64,000 nucleotides of DNA, from contig NZ_QMDV01000002.1 of assembly GCF_003284895.1 (NCBI RefSeq), forward strand, positions 62,001 to 126,000, given 5' to 3'. Positions 40,918 to 46,855 of the stretch are shown here, in pieces. The stretch comes from Pontibacter arcticus (lineage in GTDB: Bacteria; Bacteroidota; Bacteroidia; Cytophagales; Hymenobacteraceae). Positions within the stretch are counted from its first letter, which is position 1. Every line of letters starts with the position of its first letter. The notes beneath the pieces are model-generated. The model did no database searches. It saw nothing but the letters and a program-made list of their open reading frames with translations, and was not told the DNA's origin. The position numbers and the translations under genes were made by a program.

Positions 40918-42543
40918 GTGCTGCAAAGTATAAATGGCACATTTGCAGAAGTTTATAAAACTGAAGGCAGTTTGTACAGTAAACAAAAAAGAGAAAAATT
41001 GAGCGATAACCTCCAGAACTCCGATCCAAACTTAGATACCCGCTCACGGTTAAAAGCCATTATCGATACGGCCATTGATGGCATTATCACGATTGACCGG
41101 CATGGTACCATTGAAACGGTAAACCCGGCGGCGGCACGCATTTTTGGTTTTGACCCTGACGAAATGATCGGCCATAACATACGCATGCTGATGCCCGAGC
41201 CCGACAAAGGCCTGCACGATAGCTACATCAAAAATTACCTGACTACCGGCATCGGGCAGATCATAGGCAAAGGCCGCGAGGTACAGGGCAAGCGAAAAGA
41301 CGGAACCGTTTTTCCGTTTTTGCTAAGTATAAGTGAGGTAAAGCTTCAGGACCGGATCATATTTACAGGCATTGTGCACGACATCACGGAGCTGAAAAGA
41401 GCGGAAGATGCCCTGCGCGAAAGCGAAAACCAGATCAACTCTATTATCCAGACTGCTGTAGATGGCATTATTACCATTGATATGCGCGGAAAAATGGAAA
41501 TGGTAAACCCCGCTGCCTGCAAACTGTTCGGTTACCAGCCCGAAGAGATGATCGGCAACAACGTAAGCATGCTGATGCCCGAGCCCGACCACAGCCTGCA
41601 CGATAATTACCTATACCACTATCACCAGACCGGCGAAAAAAGAATCATCGGGATCGGGCGCGAAGTATCAGGGCTTAAAAAAGACAAAACGATTTTCCCG
41701 CTATACTTAAGTATAAGCGAAGTACAGCTCAGCGACCGAAAAGTATACACCGGCTTTGTGCACGACATCACGCAGCAAAAGTTAAGCGAAGAGCGCCTGC
41801 GCCGTTATGCCGCCGAACTCGAACGCAGTAACCGCGAGCTGCAGGATTTTGCCTACGTTTCGTCGCATGACCTGCAGGAGCCGTTGCGCAAGATACAGGC
41901 CTTCGGCGACCGGCTGAAGACGAAAGAATACAACACCCTAAGCGACCAGGGTAAAGATTACGTGGACCGCATGCTGAATGCTGCCTCGCGTATGCAAAAC
42001 CTCATCAACGACCTGCTTGATTTCTCAAGGGTGGCCAGTAAATCGAAGCCTTTTGTTAAAATATCACTCGAAACGGTACTGCAGGAAGTGCTCTCTGACC
42101 TGGAAGTTTCGATAGAGAACAGCCATGCCACGGTAACTTATGAAGCGCTGCCCGAAATACAGGCTGACCCGCTGCAGATGCGCCAGCTGTTTCAGAACCT
42201 GGTAAGCAACGCCATCAAGTTTAAAAAAGAGAACGAGGCCCCGCGCATCCATATTTACGCCCGCGATGTACAGGCCCGCGCCCATTTAACCTCTACGCCC
42301 GGCGATGAGCTGCTACAGATTTATGTGCAGGACAACGGTATCGGGTTTGAGGAAAAATACCTCGACAGAATTTTTAATATCTTTCAGCGCCTGGAAGGGC
42401 AAAAGTACGAAGGGTCGGGCATAGGGCTGGCTGTTTGCCGCAAAATTGCCATTCACCACGGCGGCGATATTACGGCGCAAAGCAAGCCCGGCGAAGGCAC
42501 AACGTTTATCATCACCATTGCAAAACAACATTTTAAGGATTAA
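40918..42543 (+). CDS. FixL-like sensor histidine kinase with two putative heme-binding PAS domains
   Basis: A 541-residue soluble kinase: PAS1 (about 45-160), PAS2 (about 173-288), a coiled coil, HisKA with H317 in SSHDLQEPLRK, and HATPase with NGIGFEEKYLDRIF and GSGIGLAVC. Each PAS carries the FixL pattern LMPEPD....HD.Y followed 20 residues later by the Arg of the IIGKGR or IIGIGR motif: H100/R120 and H228/R248. In Bradyrhizobium FixL the same spacing gives His200 (heme ligand) and Arg220 (oxygen gate), so both domains may bind heme and sense oxygen. Start GTG 40918. First gene of a four-gene signalling operon. Confidence 0.92.
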   Translation: MLQSINGTFAEVYKTEGSLYSKQKREKLSDNLQNSDPNLDTRSRLKAIIDTAIDGIITIDRHGTIETVNPAAARIFGFDPDEMIGHNIRMLMPEPDKGLHDSYIKNYLTTGIGQIIGKGREVQGKRKDGTVFPFLLSISEVKLQDRIIFTGIVHDITELKRAEDALRESENQINSIIQTAVDGIITIDMRGKMEMVNPAACKLFGYQPEEMIGNNVSMLMPEPDHSLHDNYLYHYHQTGEKRIIGIGREVSGLKKDKTIFPLYLSISEVQLSDRKVYTGFVHDITQQKLSEERLRRYAAELERSNRELQDFAYVSSHDLQEPLRKIQAFGDRLKTKEYNTLSDQGKDYVDRMLNAASRMQNLINDLLDFSRVASKSKPFVKISLETVLQEVLSDLEVSIENSHATVTYEALPEIQADPLQMRQLFQNLVSNAIKFKKENEAPRIHIYARDVQARAHLTSTPGDELLQIYVQDNGIGFEEKYLDRIFNIFQRLEGQKYEGSGIGLAVCRKIAIHHGGDITAQSKPGEGTTFIITIAKQHFKD

Positions 42544-42554
42544 CTATAGCATAC

Positions 42555-43004
42555 ATGAGCCCTCAGAAAAGATCAATTGTAATACTTATTGCTGATGATG
42601 ATGCCGAAGACCGCATGCTTGTAAAAGACGCGCTGGAGGAATGCCATCTCTCAAATAAAATGCACTTTGTTGAAAACGGGGAGGAGCTGTTGGATTACCT
42701 GCATAACCGGGGCAAGTATACGGATAAAATTGCGCACCCGGCACCCGGCATTATTTTGCTGGATCTGAATATGCCGAAAAAGGACGGCCGCGAAGCGCTG
42801 AAAGAGATCAAAGCTGATGAAAAGTTACGGATCATTCCGATTGTAGTGCTAACCACTTCCAAAGCTGAAGAGGACATTATGCGCACCTATAACCTGGGCG
42901 TAAGTTCGTTTGTAACAAAGCCGGTTACGTTTGCGGCGCTGGTAGATACCATGGCCACGTTAAGCAAATACTGGTTCGAAATAGTGGAGCTGCCGCGCCC
43001 CTGA
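42555..43004 (+). CDS. Single-domain CheY-like response regulator (Rcp1-type)
   Basis: A 149-residue protein that is one receiver domain with ADDDAEDRML acidic residues, the phosphoacceptor D70 in ILLDLNMPKKDG, the conserved Thr of VLTTSKAEED and the Lys of VTKPVTF. It has the extra insert HNRGKYTDKIAHPAPG typical of Rcp1-type regulators that pair with soluble PAS/phytochrome kinases. It follows the heme-PAS kinase by 11 bp and is its likely phosphate acceptor. No output domain, so it acts by protein contact or as a phosphate sink. Confidence 0.92.
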   Translation: MSPQKRSIVILIADDDAEDRMLVKDALEECHLSNKMHFVENGEELLDYLHNRGKYTDKIAHPAPGIILLDLNMPKKDGREALKEIKADEKLRIIPIVVLTTSKAEEDIMRTYNLGVSSFVTKPVTFAALVDTMATLSKYWFEIVELPRP

Positions 43005-43088
43005 TCAGTAATAAACTAAACGTAAGCGGGTTGAAAAGTATGAATACCCTTATTCGGCTTAAAACTCAGAACACGACTCAAAACTAAA

Positions 43089-44315
43089 ATGATGCCCGAA
43101 AAGATTCAGGTTTTGTTGATTGATGACGACGAAGATGATTTCGTGATCACGCGTGATATTATAAGCGATATACCGGGGCGAAAGTATACGTTGTCGTGGG
43201 CTTCTTCTTTTAAAGAAGCCGAAGAACTTATAAAACAGCAACTGCACGATGTGTACCTGATCGATTTCCATTTGGGCGCACACGACGGCCTGGAGTTACT
43301 TACCAGAGCTGTTGCAGCCGGCACCAAAGCCCCGTTTATACTTTTAACGGGCCAGAGCGACATCGAAACAGACGAAAAAGCAATGCGGGCCGGCGCGCTG
43401 GATTACCTGGTAAAAGGAACCTTTAACCCCTTCGACCTTGACCGCTCGATCAGGTATAGTATAGAACATGCCAAAAGCCTGGCTGAGATACAGAAACTGA
43501 ACGCAGAACTGGAGTTGCGCGTGGAAGTACGCACCCAGGAACTAGCCGAAGCCATAGAAAAGCTCGAGAAAACAAACGAAAGCCTTTATGAAGCGCAGCA
43601 GGAAATTTACAAAGCCCTGCAGAAAGAAAAAGAACTGCACGAACTTAAATCCCGGTTTGTAACCATTGCTTCCCACGAGTTCCGGACACCGCTCAGTACT
43701 GTACTGTCCTCGGCTTCGCTGATCGGCAAGTATAAAACAACAGAAGATGACGAAAAACGGCAGAAGCATGTTAACCGCATCAAGTCTTCGGTTAGCAACC
43801 TTACCACTATTCTGGATGATTTCCTGTCGTTGAGCCGCATTGAGGAAGGTATGATCCACAATGTGCCAAGCACGTTCAATATAAAAAACCAGTCCACCGA
43901 GATTGTAGATGAGATGCAGGGTTTCCTGAAACAGGGCCAGAAGATTACTTACCAGCACCTCTCCTCACACGAAACCGCTAATGTAGACAGGCAGCTTTTT
44001 AAAAATATCCTGCTCAACCTGTTATCCAACGGTAGTAAATATTCGGGGGCAGACAAAGAAATCCTGTTAACCACCAAAGTAGAGAAAACAGCTATAACCA
44101 TACAGGTACAAGACCGGGGCATAGGGATACCTGAAGCTGATAAAGCGCATTTGTTTACCCCTTTTTTCAGGGCACAGAATGCGGTAAACATACAAGGCAC
44201 GGGCATGGGCCTGAACATTGTAAAACGTTACGTAGAACTGATGCAGGGCACTTTAACTTATACCAGCGAACTGGGCCAGGGCACTACTTTTACCATCACA
44301 CTTCCCACTAATTAA
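43089..44315 (+). CDS. Receiver-histidine kinase hybrid
   Basis: A 408-residue protein with an N-terminal receiver (about 6-125, D59 in LIDFHLGAHDG), a long coiled coil (about 135-185), HisKA with H196 in ASHEFRTPLS, and HATPase with DRGIGIPEADKAH and GTGMGLNIVK. REC-first kinases can be switched by phosphate from another kinase, so it may relay signals from the PAS kinase to the following REC-CRP regulator. It is cytosolic and co-directional with its neighbours. Confidence 0.92.
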   Translation: MMPEKIQVLLIDDDEDDFVITRDIISDIPGRKYTLSWASSFKEAEELIKQQLHDVYLIDFHLGAHDGLELLTRAVAAGTKAPFILLTGQSDIETDEKAMRAGALDYLVKGTFNPFDLDRSIRYSIEHAKSLAEIQKLNAELELRVEVRTQELAEAIEKLEKTNESLYEAQQEIYKALQKEKELHELKSRFVTIASHEFRTPLSTVLSSASLIGKYKTTEDDEKRQKHVNRIKSSVSNLTTILDDFLSLSRIEEGMIHNVPSTFNIKNQSTEIVDEMQGFLKQGQKITYQHLSSHETANVDRQLFKNILLNLLSNGSKYSGADKEILLTTKVEKTAITIQVQDRGIGIPEADKAHLFTPFFRAQNAVNIQGTGMGLNIVKRYVELMQGTLTYTSELGQGTTFTITLPTN

Positions 44316-44320
44316 GAAAC

Positions 44321-45379
44321 ATGAAAAAGATACTCTTAATAGAAGACAATCCCGAAATACGAGAAAATACAGCCGAAATTCTGGAACTGGCCAACTACAC
44401 GGTAGTTGAAGCAGATAACGGAAAAACGGGCGTAGACCTGGCCCGGAAAGAGCTTCCTGATCTGATTGTGTGTGATATTATGATGCCCCAACTGGATGGC
44501 TACGGCGTACTGCATTTGCTTAGCAAAAACCCGGAAACGTCTGGCATCCCTTTCATTTTCCTGACGGCGAAAGCTGAGAAAGAAGACTTCCGGAAAGGCA
44601 TGAACCTGGGTGCAGACGATTACCTGACCAAGCCATTTGACGATGTGGAATTGCTGGACGCGATTGAAATGCGCCTGAAGAAAAACGAGATTCTGAAAGC
44701 TGAATTCCAGAAAAATGCCACCGGTCTGGCCCAGTTTATCGAAGAAGCAAAAGGCTACGAAGAACTGGAGAAATTCATTTCGGAAGAGTGCAAAATGACT
44801 GTTTTCAAAAAGAAGCAATACCTCTTCATGGAAGGCAACCGGCCCAATACTTTATACTTCCTTAATAAGGGCAAGGTAAAAGGTTTTAAGTCGAATGAGG
44901 AAGGCCGCGATTACATTACCAACCTCTACAAAGAAGGCGACTTTATCGGCTACCTCGACCTGCTGGAAGAATCTCACTACCGCGAAACAGCCATTGCCAT
45001 GGAGGATTCTGAAGTATATAGTATCCCGAAAGAAGACTTTTTCTCGCTGATGCACCGCAACCGCGATGTGGCGGCCAAGTTCATTAAAATACTGTCTGAT
45101 GACCTGGCTGACCGGGAAGAGCGGTTACTGAAACTGGCTTATAACTCGGTGCGCAAACGTGTGGCAGAAGCTTTGTTGCTGGTGCATAAACAGTTTCAGA
45201 GCGATGAGGCACAACCGCAGATCCTGATCACGCGCGAAGACCTGGCCAGCATCGTGGGCGCTTCCAAAGAAACGGTTATCCGGACACTCGCCGACTTTAA
45301 AGACGAAAAGATCCTCGATAGCCAGGGTAGCAAAATTACGATTCTGAACATGGATAAACTGACCAAAATGCGGAATTAG
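44321..45379 (+). CDS. Receiver-CRP/FNR fusion transcription regulator
   Basis: A 352-residue protein with a receiver (about 1-120, D52 in VCDIMMPQLDG), a cyclic-nucleotide-binding-type domain (about 145-235, with YLFMEGNRPNTLYFLNKGKV) and a CRP/FNR-type winged HTH (about 275-340, with LITREDLASIVGASKETVIR). No FNR-type N-terminal cysteine cluster is present, so direct Fe-S sensing is unlikely; input would come through phosphorylation. It lies 5 bp after the hybrid kinase. The fused form is known in Bacteroidota. It is a candidate binder of the TGA-N6-TCA sites before hemA. Confidence 0.93.
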   Translation: MKKILLIEDNPEIRENTAEILELANYTVVEADNGKTGVDLARKELPDLIVCDIMMPQLDGYGVLHLLSKNPETSGIPFIFLTAKAEKEDFRKGMNLGADDYLTKPFDDVELLDAIEMRLKKNEILKAEFQKNATGLAQFIEEAKGYEELEKFISEECKMTVFKKKQYLFMEGNRPNTLYFLNKGKVKGFKSNEEGRDYITNLYKEGDFIGYLDLLEESHYRETAIAMEDSEVYSIPKEDFFSLMHRNRDVAAKFIKILSDDLADREERLLKLAYNSVRKRVAEALLLVHKQFQSDEAQPQILITREDLASIVGASKETVIRTLADFKDEKILDSQGSKITILNMDKLTKMRN

Positions 45380-45509: not shown

Positions 45510-45521
45510 TGACATCAATCA
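45510..45521 (+). promoter_or_regulatory. CRP/FNR-type site 1 upstream of hemA
   Basis: TGACATCAATCA fits the CRP/FNR core TGA-N6-TCA, 77 bp before the hemA start. A second copy lies 23 bp downstream, about two helical turns. Confidence 0.5.
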
Positions 45522-45532
45522 AGTATAATAAC

Positions 45533-45544
45533 TGACATAGATCA
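45533..45544 (+). promoter_or_regulatory. CRP/FNR-type site 2 upstream of hemA
   Basis: TGACATAGATCA fits TGA-N6-TCA and shares the extended pattern ACTGACAT..ATCA with site 1. Confidence 0.5.
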
Positions 45545-45598: not shown

Positions 45599-46855
45599 AT
45601 GCAGAACAGATTTAAAGCCCTTACTTTATCTTACAAATCGGCCCCGATTGCCGTGCGCGAAGCCGTAGCACTGAATGAGATCGCGAGCCGGAACCTGCTG
45701 GCCAAGATAAGCGAATTTACAGATGCCACGGACGTACTCGTACTTTCGACCTGCAACCGCACCGAGGTGTATTATACTTCCGAAGCCGATCTTTCGCAGC
45801 CACTGATCAAGCTGATTGCGATGGAAAGAGGGTTTATGGCAACCAAAAATATCGCGCCCTATTTTACAAGTATAACTAACGCAAAGGAGGCTGTGCAGCA
45901 TTTGTTTTATGTAGCGCTGGGCCTGGAGTCGTTGGTGGTGGGCGATATGCAGATCCTGAACCAGGTAAAAAAAGCGTACCAATGGACGGCAGATGCAAAC
46001 ATGGCCGGCCCTTTTCTGCACCGCTTGCTGCACACTATCTTTTCTGCTAACAAACAGGTTTTTAACCAGACATCATTTTTTGATGGCGCAGCTTCGGTTT
46101 CGTATGCCGCTGTTGAACTGGTAGAAGAGCTGACCAAGAACATCGAAAACCCACGCGTATTAATGATCGGAGTAGGGGAGATCGGGGCGAATGTGTGTGA
46201 TAACTTCCAGAAATCTTCTATTAACAATATCATCATAGCCAATCGTACCTACCACAAAGCGCTGGAACTGGCCAAAAATACCGGTGCCACTGCGGTTTAC
46301 TGGGAAAACGTGCAAGCTGAAATAAAGCTGGCTGATGTGATCATTTCTTCCGTACCCGGCGATTGCTTTTACATTTCTAAAGTGGATATAGCCCCACTAC
46401 AGGCGCCTAAGTTTTTTGTGGATTTATCGATGCCACGCAGCATCGATCCTGCTTTAACAGAGCTGGAAGGCGTTACGGTACACAACATCGATAACATAAA
46501 GAACCGTGCAACCGAAGCCCTGGAAATACGGTTGGCAGCCATCCCGGCGGTAAAGCAGATCATTGCGGATAACATGGAAGAGTTTGCCACCTGGACCAAA
46601 GAACTGGCTATGTCGCCGGCTTTGCAACAGTTTAAAAGCCGCCTCGAAGAAATCAGGCAACAGGAAGTTAACCGTTATTTAAAAAAGCTGGGCGATTCTG
46701 AAAAAGAAATGGTGGAAGCCATTACCCGCAACATCCTGAACAAGATTGTAAAACTGCCAGCGTTAGAGCTAAAGGCGGCCTGTATGCGCGGCGAATCCGA
46801 GGCCTTGCTGGAAGGCTTAAGCGCGTTGTTTAACCTCGATCAGCAGGAAGCTTAA
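45599..46855 (+). CDS. hemA: Glutamyl-tRNA reductase
   Basis: A 418-residue protein with the HemA hallmarks: catalytic C52 in LSTCNRTEVYY, the GLESLVVGDMQILNQVKKAY segment, the NADPH-binding stretch MIGVGEIGANV (about 183-193), and the helical C-terminal dimerisation domain (about 310-418). It makes glutamate-1-semialdehyde from Glu-tRNA, the first committed step of heme synthesis by the C5 route. Its place just after a heme-PAS/CRP-type operon and the TGA-N6-TCA pair upstream suggest control by oxygen or heme state, which is inference. Confidence 0.97.
   Translation: MQNRFKALTLSYKSAPIAVREAVALNEIASRNLLAKISEFTDATDVLVLSTCNRTEVYYTSEADLSQPLIKLIAMERGFMATKNIAPYFTSITNAKEAVQHLFYVALGLESLVVGDMQILNQVKKAYQWTADANMAGPFLHRLLHTIFSANKQVFNQTSFFDGAASVSYAAVELVEELTKNIENPRVLMIGVGEIGANVCDNFQKSSINNIIIANRTYHKALELAKNTGATAVYWENVQAEIKLADVIISSVPGDCFYISKVDIAPLQAPKFFVDLSMPRSIDPALTELEGVTVHNIDNIKNRATEALEIRLAAIPAVKQIIADNMEEFATWTKELAMSPALQQFKSRLEEIRQQEVNRYLKKLGDSEKEMVEAITRNILNKIVKLPALELKAACMRGESEALLEGLSALFNLDQQEA

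Follow-up and report, generated by a model that had tools for sequence, protein, structure and literature searches.

We analysed a stretch of 64,000 nucleotides of Pontibacter arcticus (contig NZ_QMDV01000002.1, positions 62,001 to 126,000 of the forward strand; hereafter the window). In it, a soluble histidine kinase with two FixL-type PAS domains (HK1) is followed on the plus strand by a single-domain receiver (lone REC), a second kinase with an N-terminal receiver (REC-HK), a CRP-type response regulator (REC-CRP) and, starting 219 bases 3′ of the last, hemA, as read from the list of open reading frames (ORFs) and a Pfam scan (Table 1). The best explanation of this row is an oxygen-sensing two-kinase relay, from HK1 through REC-HK to REC-CRP, acting on cbb3 oxidase genes and hemA; we put its probability at about 0.7. 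A preliminary description of the window had reported the REC, REC-HK and REC-CRP genes after HK1, and the ORFs and domains lie where it placed them. The same four genes were found in the same order in 14 of 14 close homologues.

Each PAS domain of HK1 is about 50% identical to the haem PAS of FixL. FixL haem domains were the best PDB matches of both (E = 1.9e-32 for PAS1 and 1.8e-31 for PAS2), and the next PDB family, at its best DosP-type entry, gave 1.8e-13 and 2.5e-15. The roles of His200 and Arg220 in FixL are established, and H100/R120 and H228/R248, each pair spaced by exactly 20 residues, had been named as their counterparts in HK1; both pairs are correct in the ORF translation. Because FixL haem domains are the best PDB matches of both PAS domains, the His/Arg pair is not a chance occurrence. 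His, Tyr and Arg were invariant in both domains in all 15 sequences compared (that of the window and those of 14 homologues). The positions matching I215, L236 and I238 of FixL were likewise identical in all 15 apart from one I-to-V change in PAS2 of locus L013. Among 30 PAS domains examined out of the 39 PAS_9 matches in the genome, only the two of HK1 had the His/Arg pair and most of the others had a gap at the His column, a comparison that detects lack of the FixL-type motif and not lack of every possible haem ligand.

A structure model of isolated PAS1, built with 27 rows (mean predicted local distance difference test score, pLDDT, 83.9), was superposed without gaps on FixL 8js5, with all 128 residues matched (Z 19.6; root-mean-square deviation 1.6 Å). 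Model residues 1-128 fell on residues 138-265 of the FixL chain; therefore H100 coincides with His200 and R120 with Arg220, and the predicted structure of PAS1 has the proposed pocket residues in the FixL positions. The equivalents in PAS2 were placed by sequence alignment. In the structure search with PAS1, FixL entries stood above two further haem PAS domains, 10jx (16.9) and Escherichia coli DOS (16.4), and above LOV domains (about 14). The model of full-length HK1 was of low confidence (mean pLDDT 62.5; predicted template modelling score 0.34). H100 and H228 lay within helices in it and R120 and R248 at strand starts, and a Foldseek search with it put other kinases on top and FixL from rank 12. 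From these comparisons we infer that both FixL-type PAS domains of HK1 hold haem, and the earlier proposal of two such sites in one kinase is supported by sequence, conservation and the structure model of PAS1.

Some observations weigh against haem in both pockets. The proximal Arg206 of FixL was retained in just three of 15 sequences in either PAS, and the position of FixL Ile218 was occupied by Lys in 12 of 15 PAS1 domains. In genomes G004 and G055, which have the same four-gene layout, PAS1 has lost its His and PAS2 has retained it, so the layout does not depend on the presence of two haems. HK1 versions with a single PAS also exist (L043, L044, L063, L098 and L101). It is thus possible, though we hold it for the minority case, that one PAS alone, most likely PAS2, holds haem, and that PAS1 serves in dimerisation or coupling and owes its pocket residues to descent. 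The invariance of the PAS1 His, Tyr and Arg and of the I/L/I triad, and the fit of the PAS1 model to the FixL haem domain, argue against this explanation and for two haem pockets.

The predicted output of the relay also fits a response to oxygen, since CRP-type operators precede hemA and cbb3 genes. Two TGA-N6-TCA boxes, 23 bp apart, lie before hemA; no other such pair occurs in the window at the spacings tried. The tandem box with N10 was found at four places in the 3.77-Mb genome, and its control at none. Three of the four precede the cbb3-oxidase genes ccoI, ccoNO and ccoG, and the fourth lies near the gene for a functionally uncharacterised protein of 605 residues. Across 13 genomes of the same genus, including that of the window, there were 58 tandem matches versus four of the control. 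In 12 of these genomes, each of the three cco genes had tandem boxes ahead of it; the remaining one, G154, has a completeness of 87%, and its cco genes were not inspected. When six other genomes were searched in the same way, four were without a tandem match, and those four were also without a REC-CRP match. The box consensus was CTGAt-N4-ATCA-N10-TGAC-N4-GTCAT followed by a T-rich tail; it was derived from 32 of 39 boxes in 12 loci, selected and oriented by the T-rich tail, which is hence present by construction.

Within 94 REC-CRP loci, 45 tandem boxes were counted versus a mean of 0.6 and a maximum of three in 20 shuffles. Several stand directly before the kinase gene, and several relatives have boxes ahead of their kinase/REC-CRP genes (for example, L017, L053, L058 and L066). 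TGA-N6-TCA was present upstream of hemA in all 12 loci having hemA. Of the 14 relatives, 10 also have it upstream of HK1. As a background figure, a box lay within 300 bases upstream of 200 of the 861 ORFs of at least 150 amino acids in the fetched loci, targets included. Strict tandem boxes occurred in 35 of 66 genomes with REC-CRP versus 12 of 82 without a match (Fisher test, 9e-7), and in 35 of 66 versus 12 of 61 among genomes above 2.5 Mb (1e-4), both tests treating genomes as independent and ignoring kinship.

The box evidence has points on the other side. The hemA box was tandem in just three of the 12 loci (the window, L007 and L010). No TGA-N6-TCA was found upstream of HK1 in the window, nor in four of 14 relatives. 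Strict tandem boxes were missing from 31 of the 66 genomes with REC-CRP, and among the 12 genomes that have them without a REC-CRP match, G132 has ten. Boxes in genomes without a REC-CRP match imply that other CRP/FNR proteins probably read similar sites; in G132, this operator may serve a different regulator of the CRP/FNR family. TGA-N6-TCA is a general CRP/FNR core. Both facts would suit an explanation in which another CRP/FNR protein reads the tandem operators here and REC-CRP has different targets. We consider this quite unlikely, as just one further CRP-family protein was found in the genome and boxes precede the kinase/REC-CRP genes themselves in L017, L053, L058 and L066. Given the positions of the boxes, their co-occurrence with REC-CRP and the finding of just two CRP-family proteins, REC-CRP is likely the reader of the tandem boxes. 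The other protein, of 215 amino acids, adjoins genes that look sulfur-related by eye.

REC-CRP itself has a clear receiver (102 bits in the Pfam scan), and its CRP part matched 2gau best in the PDB, then CRP. Two kinds of control known in this family were considered and rejected. REC-CRP has just Cys51 and Cys157 in the whole protein, so it lacks the four-Cys cluster set of FNR-type control. The Glu of the cyclic AMP pocket, whose role in CRP is established, aligns to Tyr, against control by cyclic AMP.

The main argument for the order of the relay came from relatives. A REC-CRP match at 1e-50 was found in 66 of 148 genomes of the order, at 82 places; 78 regions were fetched for reading of the neighbourhood, and two REC-CRP places were left out (G087:C1:94248 and G085:C1:42519). 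Four kinds of layout were seen. The first is that of the window, HK1, REC, REC-HK and REC-CRP with FixL-type PAS. Two haem-competent PAS domains were present in the window group and G130, and a single-PAS HK1 in G040, G024 and G096 (the lone REC of G096 was not among the filtered ORFs); the single-PAS form was also found in G041 and G070, where no lone REC was found. The second kind has this order of four genes too and was seen in eight loci, all of family f18. The third, in 13 loci, has a FixL-type PAS joined directly to a kinase core like that of REC-HK, and REC-CRP comes next. Its PAS is 61-69% identical to PAS1 of the window in ten loci and 50% in L017; His, Tyr and Arg are all retained in 11 of the 13, and in several of these Val replaces the last Ile. 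The fourth kind comprises 35 loci with more distant PAS kinases, about 30% identical where the PAS was read, in which the His is mostly kept and M, K, L, R or another residue stands at the Arg place. No kinase was recognised beside REC-CRP in 13 loci, partly owing to contig ends.

Two of these observations count against the haem-sensing relay: in f18 the diverged PAS of HK1 retains the His, with Lys or Leu in the position of the Arg, and two FixL-type direct kinases, L072 and L102, are without the His. Many related kinases next to REC-CRP have M, K or L where FixL has its distal Arg. Together with the solved nitric oxide (NO) and carbon monoxide (CO) complexes of FixL haem domains, as given in structure titles, this could be taken to mean that the pockets sense NO, CO or redox state, not oxygen. 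The distal Arg is retained in both PAS domains of HK1, and operators at cbb3 and hemA genes fit oxygen limitation, so we hold this to be very unlikely and keep to oxygen as the signal. The distant PAS kinases of L047, L048, L049, L052 and L056 have His at the haem position, but Met or Phe for the distal Arg; they are possibly haem sensors with another distal ligand.

Since a haem PAS is fused directly to the REC-HK kind of kinase in relatives, the receiver of REC-HK is the expected target of HK1. The tree of REC-CRP (92 of the 94 loci) agrees with exchange at this place. A supported group (100/96) of 39 rows mixes 21 REC-HK rows and 11 FixL-PAS rows, and the starred branches of the tree require that the REC-HK label was gained or lost four times or more. 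The ORF filter dropped the REC-CRP of L041 and L100; that of L041 is known from tblastn alone and its residues were not read. PAS and receiver thus appear, from the sequence comparison, to have been exchanged more than once at the input of the kinase that serves REC-CRP. The cco genes lie inside 26 of the 94 loci, a count that leaves out L063, L078 and L104, where the match was weak or confined to CcoI. A gene for a DesA-like desaturase lies among the cbb3 and REC-CRP genes in L053, L058, L059, L060, L061 and L103.

The kinase core of HK1 had its best PDB match in 8f71, the RpBphP2 phytochrome kinase (2.7e-57), and RcpB, Rcp1 and RcpA were among the top eight PDB matches of the lone REC. This resemblance would suit two separate pathways in one operon, in which HK1 serves only the lone REC and the REC-HK/REC-CRP pair answers another kinase. 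We regard this as unlikely. In relatives a haem-PAS kinase holds the place of REC-HK, and in L098 and L101 no lone REC was found between HK1 and REC-HK. At the five receiver positions that we take to set kinase partnership, chosen from work on HK853-RR468, the lone REC reads E-D-L-[DE]-A, the REC-HK receiver D-D-I-[DE]-[IT] and REC-CRP E-I-N-E-I (15 sequences each); the first two resemble each other and REC-CRP differs, which is consistent with HK1 serving both. The predicted phosphoacceptors were conserved: D70 of the lone REC in 27 of 27 sequences, D59 of REC-HK in 32 of 32 and D52 of REC-CRP in 90 of 91, the remaining one having a gap.

In the two-kinase relay, HK1, with haem in its two PAS pockets, would autophosphorylate on His317 according to oxygen and pass the phosphate to D59 of the REC-HK receiver and to D70 of the lone REC, which may be a phosphate sink or a feedback partner. 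The receiver would set the kinase activity of REC-HK, and REC-HK would phosphorylate REC-CRP on D52. Phosphorylated REC-CRP, on tandem TGA-N6-TCA operators, would turn on ccoI, ccoNO, ccoG and hemA at low oxygen and, in relatives, its own operon as well. Activation of cco and hemA at low oxygen is suggested by the position of the operators and the function of the genes. The multi-protein relay of the preliminary description is thus supported by the layouts in relatives, with phosphotransfer as its predicted link, and a mode of working like the oxygen-responsive FixL pathway is well supported by comparison.

The sign of the first step could be either of two. FixL proper is active without oxygen. 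HK1 might likewise be on at low oxygen, with the phosphorylated receiver activating REC-HK; or HK1 might be on in oxygen, with the phosphorylated receiver silencing REC-HK, as published for NmpS of Myxococcus xanthus. If the REC-HK receiver is inhibitory here too, HK1 must respond to oxygen in the opposite sense to FixL. The stretch linking PAS to the predicted phosphorylated His was 34 residues in all 27 readable HK1 proteins (three of 30 upstream kinases, L062, L098 and L101, were unrecognised). In kinases directly before REC-CRP, 34 of 39 linker values were 66, 73, 80 or 87 (all 7n+3) or 30; the other five (187, 294 twice, 295 and 309) are uninterpretable, and some loci were fetched twice. 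Linker register can invert kinases, according to two papers (PMC11164954, PMC6798134), and with 34 set against 7n+3 or 30, inversion of HK1 relative to FixL is plausible. Tentatively, and at well below even odds, the dual-haem HK1 may be an inverting front end, active with oxygen and silencing REC-HK, with two pockets of different affinity, so that loss of oxygen frees REC-HK to activate a CRP regulator gated by phosphorylation. Such an arrangement would be convergent with NmpRSTU of M. xanthus and would have arisen repeatedly within the order, as haem PAS and receiver replaced each other at the input of one kinase.

The features are listed in Table 1. The GTG start of HK1 at 40918 is doubtful, as 10 of 14 homologue ORFs start about 30 residues downstream. 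The TTG at 40999 is probably a better start, in agreement with the homologues, and residue numbers would then move by 27.

Table 1. Features of the kinase/REC-CRP operon and hemA in the window.
Feature	Position	Strand	Basis
HK1, soluble PAS-PAS-HisKA-HATPase kinase, tandem FixL-type PAS	40918..42543	+	domain scan, homologues
PAS1 of HK1, FixL-type	41047..41397	+	sequence and structure model
PAS1 predicted haem His, H100	41215-41217	+	
PAS1 predicted distal Arg, R120	41275-41277	+	
PAS2 of HK1, FixL-type	41422..41775	+	sequence alignment
PAS2 predicted haem His, H228	41599-41601	+	
PAS2 predicted distal Arg, R248	41659-41661	+	
HK1 His317, predicted phosphorylation site	41866-41868	+	
Lone REC, Rcp-type single-domain response regulator	42555..43004	+	
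Lone REC phospho-Asp, D70	42762-42764	+	
REC-HK, N-terminal receiver and HisKA-HATPase	43089..44315	+	
REC-HK receiver Asp, D59	43263-43265	+	
REC-HK kinase His, His196	43674-43676	+	
REC-CRP response regulator, CRP-type fold and helix-turn-helix	44321..45379	+	
REC-CRP phospho-Asp, D52	44474-44476	+	
Tandem CRP-type operator	45510..45544	.	
First box, TGAcatcaaTCA	45510-45521	.	
Second box, TGAcatagaTCA	45533-45544	.	
hemA, glutamyl-tRNA reductase, predicted target	45599..46855	+	

The gene at the fourth tandem box of the genome encodes the 605-residue protein (L132:4204-6021, minus strand; G000:C2, near 192-194 kb). It gave no Pfam, NCBIfam or credible PDB match, and six Cys are invariant in its 11 homologues. 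The gene has a tandem operator upstream and is divergent from HK1 in L001, L003, L004, L007 and L162. The protein is a candidate for an unknown member of the low-oxygen regulon. Genes for a truncated globin and a class II (B12) ribonucleotide reductase end beside the tandem operator (L132:6347-10171, minus strand). NrdJ and the globin were rejected as targets of this box, which lies beyond their 3′ ends and is faced by the 5′ end of the 605-residue gene.

This analysis names a directly testable sensor, relay, regulator, operator and set of targets for control of cbb3 oxidase. No paper on such control in these Bacteroidota was among those listed from the openly licensed literature, though not all searches were so aimed; none on Bacteroidota REC-CRP was listed there either, a weak negative with subscription papers outside its scope. 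The relatives can be arranged in a series that begins with a single haem PAS on the kinase itself and leads to a separate kinase bearing one PAS domain or two. This natural series could show how relays develop out of two-component systems, and whether the sign changes in the process.

Several known systems share parts with this one. REC-CRP has the CRP effector fold and helix-turn-helix of CRP/FNR proteins and differs from them in its N-terminal receiver and, with two cysteines in place of four, from FNR. The output of DosP is cyclic di-GMP; HK1 shares its haem PAS fold (the Z of 16.4 above is for the E. coli haem domain) at only 26% identity. The HK1 core and the Rcp-type lone REC with its conserved D70 recall phytochrome kinases and their partners (RpBphP2, Rcp1), but HK1 has haem-type PAS in place of the light-sensing module.

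With FixL/FixJ/FixK, the system shares a haem PAS with the same His and distal Arg, a CRP-family output and, as a predicted target here, cbb3 oxidase. It differs in having two haem-competent PAS domains, a phytochrome-type kinase core and an inserted second kinase, and FixK is without the receiver that the CRP protein carries here. A compact FixLJ-K circuit, as the preliminary description had it, was therefore not upheld. No FixJ-type REC-HTH regulator was found in the operon (the rest of the genome was not searched for FixJ), and HK1 reached 319 bits with the curated FixL model NF041777, below its cut-off of 850, which speaks against membership in FixL. The kinase core and the lone REC are phytochrome/Rcp-like, and the CRP protein bears a receiver of its own.

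The nearest studied layout is NmpRSTU of M. xanthus, which is closer than FixLJ owing to its two-kinase arrangement with a REC-HK. In two reports, its haem kinase is modelled as active in oxygen, phosphorylates the receiver of NmpS and keeps NmpS off; at low oxygen NmpS activates NmpR, which controls cbb3 oxidase and hemN (PMC11841059, PMC6211767). Both systems have a soluble sensor kinase with haem (predicted here), a receiver-only protein, a REC-HK and a DNA-binding response regulator, and a regulon, predicted here, with cbb3 oxidase and a haem-synthesis gene (hemN there, hemA here). The sensor of NmpU is a globin whereas that of HK1 is PAS, with no globin match in the Pfam scan; NmpT has two RECs and the lone REC here has one; and the output of NmpR is NtrC-like, that of the window CRP-type. 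The predicted oxygen relay combines sensing of the FixL type with wiring as in NmpRSTU and a CRP output that carries its own receiver.

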